DNA of 64,000 nt from an uncultured Pseudohongiella sp. Its GTDB lineage: Bacteria; Pseudomonadota; Gammaproteobacteria; Pseudomonadales; Pseudohongiellaceae. Shown here one piece after another: positions 23,402 to 25,298 of this stretch. Numbering within the stretch: position 1 is the first letter of the stretch; each line of letters begins with the position of its first letter. The DNA lies in assembly GCA_902591495.1 (NCBI GenBank), contig CACJAW010000004.1:1-64000 (forward strand), read 5' to 3'. The notes beneath the pieces are model-generated. The model was not told the origin of the DNA. It searched no databases and saw only the letters and a list, made by a program, of their open reading frames with translations. A program made the position numbers and the translations under genes.

Positions 23402-23701
23402 GTAAACCTCTTTAAATCCTGATCATAACCACTATCTCAGACTTTTTGGACCACTCCAAGATCCGCTTGCAGAGAAACGACATTACCCTCTTTGTGGTAT
23501 AATTTTATTAAATTCAGTAAGTTAATCAAAATACGATCGCTAAGCGAGGGACGTGATTTTCCCATATCGGAGCACCTACTGTAAACTCCGACACCCAAGA
23601 TTCCTAAAATGCCTAAGGAACTTCATGCGATAAAACTTAAGTAGCAAACTTTTTTTAACGATGATTATAGACGTAATTAAAAAATCACACGACTTACACT
23701 T

Positions 23702-24340
23702 TTGGCGGAAATGAGCGTTTCAAGAAATCAGTCTATCGGTCTTATATTGGCGGGAGGTAAGGGCTCACGGATGGGCTTTAAAGATAAGCCCTTTCTCCGA
23801 ATTGGGGGAAGAACCATAGCTCAGTGGATTTTATCTCAATCAGAAAAACACATCGACGAATTTTTATTTAGCTTAAAACGAAACCACATTAAATATCACC
23901 AATTTGGGCATAAAATTGTTTGCGATATTTCAGAGCTTTCAACCGGACCGCTAATTGGTATCTATAGCGCTATGGAGTTTTTGTATCAGGAAAGGGGTCC
24001 AAATGAGTCCACTTTTATTCTAACTTTTCCAGGTGATGTACCTTTTTTTCCTGAAACACTAATTCCCACGCTGATGCACCGAATAGAGAAAAGTCCGCTA
24101 GATGTAGTTGTTGCAAGATCTGAACAACACTTACAACCGCTTTTTGCAGCATGGACTCTGTCTGCAAGAGAAAAAGTGAAAAAATTTATAAACAAGGGAT
24201 TTGTCGGCCCCAGGCAAATACTGCCACACCTTAATCACCAAGTGGTATTTTTTGAGGCTCAGTCCGAGCTAGAATTTTTAAATATAAACACTGAGCAAGA
24301 TCTTGAAACTGCTCAATATTTAACCACTAATCCACTATAA
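23702..24340 (+). CDS. mobA: Molybdenum cofactor guanylyltransferase
   Basis: GLILAGGKGSRMGFKDKPFLRIGGRTIAQWIL, FPGDVPFFPETLI, QHLQPLFAAW. Confidence 0.85.
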   Translation: MAEMSVSRNQSIGLILAGGKGSRMGFKDKPFLRIGGRTIAQWILSQSEKHIDEFLFSLKRNHIKYHQFGHKIVCDISELSTGPLIGIYSAMEFLYQERGPNESTFILTFPGDVPFFPETLIPTLMHRIEKSPLDVVVARSEQHLQPLFAAWTLSAREKVKKFINKGFVGPRQILPHLNHQVVFFEAQSELEFLNINTEQDLETAQYLTTNPL

Positions 24341-24505
24341 AATTAAATGCAAAATATTTTTTGACTTTAAATGATTACCTTATTTTATTGATTCTATTGG
24401 TTAAAGTCGAAATCCTTATGTTTTCAAAAACTACACTAAATCCATGAATTTATTGTAAATTTTTTACCCCCATTATTCATGCTCATATATTGAGAATTTT
24501 TACAA

Positions 24506-24520
24506 TGGCACGCAATTTGC
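24506..24520 (+). promoter_or_regulatory. Sigma-54 (RpoN) -24/-12 promoter TGGCACGCAATTTGC
   Basis: Exact match to TGGCACG-N4-TTGC with GG-N10-GC spacing, intergenic and pointing toward the 24654 ORF. Confidence 0.75.
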
Positions 24521-24561
24521 GCCCTTTAATTTGATCCCCAGTAGAATTATGGTAATTTGAC

Positions 24562-24631
24562 TCACTAGCTTGAGGTAGGACATCTCCAATTCGCGTAGAG
24601 CTTATTCAAAAGACTTACCTCAAGCTGGTGA
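24562..24631 (+). ncRNA. Structured leader / candidate regulatory RNA: 18-bp stem (16 Watson-Crick + 2 G-U) closing a 34-nt loop
   Basis: TCACTAGCTTGAGGTAGG (24562-24579) pairs with CTTACCTCAAGCTGGTGA (24614-24631). Confidence 0.6.
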
Positions 24632-24653
24632 AGACCATTTACAGGTAAAAATC

Positions 24654-24848
24654 ATGATAGAAAATCTGAACCCCAAAGGCATTCCAAGCGAACCTAAGTA
24701 TAACCATGATGAGACCCGAATTTTTTCGAGACAGAACGTCTGGTATTATACTTGCCCAAACGGTGACAACGTGGGCCCATTCAGATATCGGTCCGAGGCA
24801 AAATCGAGCCTCGATAAGTTTATTGAACAATTAAAAGACAGGTTATAA
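24654..24848 (+). CDS. Small (64 aa) conserved-looking protein, possibly DUF6316-like
   Basis: RIFSRQNVWYYTCPNGDNVGPFRYRSEAKSSLDKFIEQL; SD-like CAGG 8-10 nt upstream; downstream of a sigma-54 site. The overlapping antisense 63-aa ORF is less plausible. Confidence 0.75.
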   Translation: MIENLNPKGIPSEPKYNHDETRIFSRQNVWYYTCPNGDNVGPFRYRSEAKSSLDKFIEQLKDRL

Positions 24849-24863
24849 CAATCCGAAAGTATC

Positions 24864-25298
24864 TCAGTTCTCTTCAAAATCTAAAGAGACAGAATTGATA
24901 CAATATCGAAGTCCTGTCGTTTCACGCGGCCCATCGTCAAATACGTGCCCTAAATGCGATTTGCACGCACTACAAATAACCTCTACCCGAATCATACCGA
25001 GAGAACGGTCTTCGACTTCCGTGATTGTCTCCGGCCTAATTGGCTCATAAAAGCTTGGCCACCCTGAACCTGAATCATATTTTGCCTTGGACGAAAAAAG
25101 ATCTTGTCCGCATGCGCCACATATGTAGATGCCAACAGCTTTGTGATTTAAGAAGTTGCCAGTAAAGGCTCTCTCGGTTCCCTTTTGTCTTAGAACGGAG
25201 TACCTTGACTCACCAAGCAACTGCCTCCACTCAGAGTCGGTTCTATTAATTTCTTTAACGACTTCTATGTCGTCCACAATCACCCCCTTCAGAGACAC
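24864..25298 (-). CDS. msrB: Peptide-methionine (R)-S-oxide reductase
   Basis: CGACGQDLFSSKAKYDSGSGWPSFYEPI, CSACKSHLGHVFDDGPRETTGLRYCINSVSLDF. Confidence 0.96.
   Translation of the reverse strand: MSLKGVIVDDIEVVKEINRTDSEWRQLLGESRYSVLRQKGTERAFTGNFLNHKAVGIYICGACGQDLFSSKAKYDSGSGWPSFYEPIRPETITEVEDRSLGMIRVEVICSACKSHLGHVFDDGPRETTGLRYCINSVSLDFEEN

Follow-up and report, generated by a model that had tools for sequence, protein, structure and literature searches.

The stretch of DNA examined here, referred to as the window, comprises 64,000 nucleotides from an uncultured Pseudohongiella sp. whose assembled genome (2.1 Mb) is 66% complete. Between positions 23702 and 25298, a gene for a MobA-like NTP transferase (23702-24340, forward strand; PF12804, E = 2.6e-28) is followed by about 165 bp of intergenic DNA, a box, TGGCACGCAATTTGC, at 24506, a hairpin, an ORF of 64 aa (24654-24848, forward strand) and a convergent msrB (24864-25298, reverse strand; SelR, E = 3.1e-50). 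The initial annotation had read the region as an activator-driven sigma-54 unit, and the features it listed are all present. The 11-base RpoN core with GG-N10-GC spacing is found as TGGCACGCAATTTGC at 24506-24520 with zero mismatches, the 18-bp hairpin occupies 24562-24631 and folds well below shuffled sequences, and both the ORF and the convergent msrB were recovered. Further upstream, near 23540-23600 and beside tig, lies a motif, GCGATTYTSCCAYAG...TTATTCAAYC, that is seen again beside tig in many relatives (L134, L135, L154, L168, L170 and L086-L096) and probably belongs to the promoter region of tig.

The hairpin is part of a structured RNA whose core, assuming a start from the -10-like element discussed below, would extend from 24560 to 24638 on the forward strand (the model match covers 24544-24638). 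The leader folds at -37.1 kcal/mol (z = -4.3 relative to shuffles), and the hairpin taken alone gives z = -5.9. The closing helix, P1, has its 5' arm at 24562-24579 and its 3' arm at 24614-24631, and is followed by a near-invariant unpaired tail, AGACCA (24632-24637), of which AGACC is found in all 44 alignment rows. Copies in the genus share one layout, in which the box is followed by about 40 nt, then ACTCGYTAGC..., variable inner hairpins and ...GCTAGCGGAGACCA. Among 39 genus copies P1 is 97.6% paired, and 14 of its 18 pairs are altered on both sides. When copies from other genera are added to give a non-redundant set of 44, 95.2% of cells are paired and 15 of 18 pairs are altered on both sides (119 cells). 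None of 500 shuffles reaches the observed value, and helices slid along the alignment are at most 52.5% paired. The inner loops are not conserved, and less so than the promoter. No consensus fold was found in the upstream region. No family in Rfam 15 matches the RNA, and none appears at the RNA itself up to E = 1; four weak Rfam matches in one locus (L097) sit elsewhere.

A long inverted repeat of this kind could also act in the DNA, as a protein site, a cruciform or the remnant of an insertion, and the RNA model does weakly match the opposite strand as well. Those opposite-strand matches were rejected as further copies, being echoes of the palindromic helix. Against a DNA-level role, P1 has 70 G-U cells but only 13 A-C cells, the excess expected if it is the forward-strand RNA that is under constraint; compensatory changes occur along the helix, and each genome has a single locus, which keeps a constant distance to a promoter-like element. 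Taken with these observations, a DNA repeat is very improbable, and the alignments demonstrate both the structure and the strand of the RNA.

In genera that lack DUF6316 (the domain of the 64-aa ORF, see below) the RNA has a different interior (L238-L243, L133-L135, L154, L160 and L170). The two hairpins are there often replaced by one with a CCACA-type loop and then an A-rich strand of the AACAACA type. By eye only, this strand and the CCACA loop resemble Hfq/Crc-type sites.

A model built from the genus copies detects one locus each in 47 of 84 genus genomes and no copy in the other 37, which means that the lineage can do without the RNA. Run against 394 genomes of the order, the same model finds matches only in the family, apart from one that is borderline. 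With a broader model, one locus each is detected in 77 of 137 family genomes, representing 6 of 8 genera (OM182/Pseudohongiella-type). The single locus per genome that emerges from all these comparisons rules out a mobile or repeated element. An exact-pattern scan of 85,462 species, one genome per species, returned 57 stretches, 56 of them with the helix and with titles that point to OM182, Pseudohongiella and unnamed Gammaproteobacteria. The remaining match (L151), in a cyanobacterium, was rejected as chance because no matching helix was seen on inspection. One RNA-bearing record (L166, CAMDML010000002.1) is titled Klebsiella pneumoniae, evidently wrongly; in length and sequence it is the same contig as L133 (G367), which is from this family.

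The 64-aa ORF encodes a DUF6316-like protein. Its residues 21-60 align to DUF6316 (PF19837) with 27.8 bits, just under the Pfam cut-off of 28.5, and the homology is backed by an alignment of 36 relatives in which the N-terminal third is variable. Relatives were found in 63 of the 84 genus genomes. An AlphaFold model of moderate confidence (pLDDT 70.6) has three strands and one helix and gave no significant match when compared with the PDB; DUF6316 is mentioned in none of the papers searched.

The initial annotation had made this ORF an integral part of the unit, a claim that does not survive comparison. Of 63 scanned loci in the genus, 42 have the box and RNA layout ahead of the DUF6316 gene, and DUF6316 follows the RNA in 43 of the 56 pattern-scan loci. 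In one of these, L187 (identical to L103), the gene is frameshifted. DUF6316 is absent in 11 of the 56, where downstream sequence is available. In these the RNA lies beside convergent msrB (L168, L170, L171), beside a convergent RND/MMPL gene (L160, L177, L178, L188) or ahead of other genes (L137, L146, L166, L169). Two others, L154 and L148, end early downstream; for L148 a longer copy (L130) reveals the ORF 416 nt further on. When the whole family was searched, two further genera proved to have copies adjoining convergent RND genes, and other copies precede what by inspection are DUF6316-like starts. Conversely, about 20 species of the genus keep DUF6316 with neither RNA nor box upstream. 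Loss of promoter and hairpin with retention of the ORF, the pattern that the initial annotation had named as telling against its reading, thus does occur, but so does the opposite. Promoter and hairpin are kept together across relatives and independently of the ORF. Since each persists without the other, the product conserved here is the RNA, with the ORF no integral part of the unit, which bears out the earlier suggestion that the output may be the RNA.

The distance from RNA to ORF in the scanned set ranges from 1 to 257 nt, and no intrinsic terminator was found between them in 42 loci scanned, so co-transcription of RNA and DUF6316 is likely where both occur. DUF6316 is a dispensable neighbour, probably carried on the same transcript as the RNA in the window. 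Because most carriers in the window's genus have the RNA just upstream of DUF6316, a leader role may be common there. A stricter form of this idea makes the RNA a cis-acting leader, a riboswitch or attenuator, that controls DUF6316. The 43 of 56 loci and the lack of an intervening terminator fit such a role, but the RNA and its promoter are preserved in loci where the ORF is absent or disrupted or has given way to unrelated or convergent genes, the spacing is far from constant, and the inner loops are not conserved. Control in cis as the function of the RNA is, on this evidence, improbable. Intrinsic terminators were likewise not found in the 300 nt that follow 17 copies lacking DUF6316, and the 3' end of the RNA may arise by Rho termination or processing.

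The box that precedes the RNA, TGGCACGCAATTTGCGCCCT (24506-24525, forward strand), contains a perfect sigma-54 -24/-12 core, and its family consensus is TGGCAYRNWWWTTGC followed by G or C. The core is the sole exact match within the window; a second in the 2.1-Mb genome lies upstream of a flhA-like gene. With up to 2 mismatches allowed, 9 matches were found in the window compared with 10.9 expected from shuffles, and for want of any excess the weight of the site lies in its exactness and conservation. All 62 of the non-redundant copies carry TGGCAYRN4TTGC, and its spacing is exact. Selection of 46 of these relied in part on a pattern containing the core, and the remaining 16, all in other genera, provide the clean test. 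These 16 loci were first found without using the box, by an RNA model beginning 38 nt downstream of it, and the core stands at the same offset in every one; the box is thus an independent observation there. A chance promoter match is ruled out by the constant offset of the box in every copy. T-G-G-C-A and T-T-G-C do not vary among the 62 copies; T or C occurs at position 5 and A or G at position 6.

A second element is held in register with the box. The pattern TAnnnT, which in the window is TATGGT at 24548-24553, has an offset of 42 bp from the box start in 58 of 62 copies, and none of the 62 departs from this by more than 1 bp; counts at any other offset are at most 5. ACTCG usually lies 6-7 nt beyond it. 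A putative and degenerate -35-like hexamer, TTTAAT, is located at 24525-24530; compared with TTGACA, its first T is present in 62 of 62 copies and its second in 52 of 62, so that only the first T is invariant. A search of the 84 genus genomes for the box together with the -10-like pattern gave 42 matches, every one at the RNA locus, and no other target. Because the combination occurs nowhere else in the 84 genomes, the promoter serves this RNA alone.

Upstream of the box, most of the genus carries tandem elements of the TATCTYATTGTTT type about 59 bp apart, which are possible activator sites. The corresponding region in the window (24381-24450, forward strand) resembles two such elements and is degenerate and weak in this species; in other genera the elements were not recognised by eye. 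In loci L100-L129, in the region equivalent to 24381-24450, TTTTCAAAA precedes the second tandem element, and the two elements stand at a near-fixed distance upstream of the box.

Which sigma factor reads this promoter is the point on which interpretations diverge, and the two elements predict different starts, near 24532 for sigma-54 (by arithmetic) and at 24560 for the -10-like element, which would place the 5' end of the RNA at its helix. In the simplest case RNA polymerase with sigma-54 would bind the -24/-12 box, an enhancer-binding protein would activate it, and TAnnnT would either lie within the RNA or act as a weak additional promoter. The invariant core and spacing support this, as does the variation at positions 5 and 6, which matches that of known sigma-54 sites. 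The tandem elements of the genus lie at a typical enhancer distance, and there is precedent in sigma-54 sRNAs such as GlmY (PMC3844500, PMC6075780). Sigma-54 is also available, since rpoN is present in nearly all carriers of the RNA and the window's genome holds rpoN and at least 5 enhancer-binding proteins, genes that the initial annotation had proposed looking for. The two carriers in which rpoN was not found (G001 and G015) are only 72-75% complete, and an apparently broken rpoN in a further genome (G013; L194, G013:C27) is likely an assembly error because neighbouring genes are frameshifted too. Loss of rpoN is uninformative as a test of sigma-54 dependence, the gene being nearly universal. 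Against a plain sigma-54 promoter, the -12 GC is followed by G in 60 copies and by C in 2, whereas 27 of the 29 intergenic Salmonella sigma-54 sites have A or T there, a preference that is usual and not absolute (PMC3844500). The same genome's ordinary sigma-54 sites, ahead of flhA-, glnK- and flgB-like genes (so named by inspection of translated starts), carry T or A there. Positions 8-9 of the box are A or T only, which known sigma-54 sites do not need, and the fixed distance to TAnnnT is left unexplained. The sigma-54 assignment of the box is thus plausible with specific evidence against it, and a plain sigma-54 unit is a tentative reading, with chances short of even. Ordinary-looking sites of the kind just mentioned were seen at L006, L010 and L017; because they precede flhA-, glnK- and flgB-like genes, the sigma-54 regulon of this genome probably includes flagella and nitrogen.

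An alternative is that a promoter of the sigma-70 type, made of the degenerate -35 and TAnnnT, starts the RNA at 24560, and that the box is the site of a putative regulator and merely resembles a -24/-12 element. The constancy of TAnnnT at 42 bp, the position of ACTCG just beyond it and the invariant T at the expected -35 all argue for this. The box is in addition a near-palindrome, GCA-N7-TGC, with an A/T-only centre and a G/C flank, unlike sigma-54 sites. However, an unrelated regulator site is unlikely to match the full sigma-54 core and spacing by chance, no regulator was identified, and elsewhere in the genus the box with its -10-like pattern does not recur. A sigma-70-type start is as likely as the plain sigma-54 unit, again with chances short of even. 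It is possible too, if rather unlikely, that the promoter is a composite, in which the -24/-12 and -10 elements of a new RNA family are kept in a fixed 42-bp register, so that the sigma-54 and sigma-70 holoenzymes take turns or one of them shuts out the other, and the RNA would then have two 5' ends. What stands of the activator-driven unit first proposed is a conserved promoter-like element before a structured RNA, in a genome with rpoN and enhancer-binding proteins. Strict dependence on sigma-54 is less certain, in view of the G or C after the -12 GC in 62 of 62 copies and the fixed TAnnnT.

Whichever sigma factor is used, the locus is probably a gene devoted to a small structured RNA with no Rfam entry, as judged from sequence comparison. 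Its promoter would consist of the invariant box (TGGCAYRNWWWTTGC and then G or C) and TAnnnT 42 bp from the box start, read by sigma-54, by sigma-70 aided by an activator bound to the box, or by both in turn. The RNA would be transcribed in response to a stimulus, beginning at or slightly before ACUCG. Its first 80 nt or so would fold into the long closing helix P1 (18 bp here) around variable inner hairpins, leaving the inner loops and the AGACCA tail exposed. P1 may protect the 5' end, and the tail, the inner loops or both may make contact with a target, either RNA or protein. Where a species has DUF6316, the transcript would continue into that gene, and the RNA would double as its 5' leader.

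If this is correct, the locus defines, in bacteria that are mostly uncultured, an RNA family that Rfam lacks and that has strong structural support. It also presents a promoter whose fixed register is fully explained by neither plain sigma-54 nor plain sigma-70, and so a clean test case for two promoter types sharing one site. To start from the ORF in interpreting the locus would have led to the wrong product.

No small RNAs of OM182 or Pseudohongiella were found in the papers searched. Small RNAs driven by sigma-54 include Qrr of Vibrio and the CrcZ-type sRNAs of Pseudomonas and Azotobacter; glmY also has an overlapping sigma-70 promoter. The likeness to the Qrr and CrcZ-type sRNAs is one of promoter class only. 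In contrast to them, the RNA described here has no Rfam match, one copy per genome, no common gene context that could be seen and no recognisable intrinsic terminator. GlmY and GlmZ of the Enterobacteriaceae are structured sRNAs that are listed with sigma-54 sites in Salmonella (PMC3844500), and PMC6075780 describes a sigma-54 promoter of glmY activated by QseF (GlrR). The present RNA has no similarity to GlmY/GlmZ by Rfam and its gene context differs. It differs from them also in its -10-like element 42 bp from the box start, which places its two possible starts about 28 nt apart.
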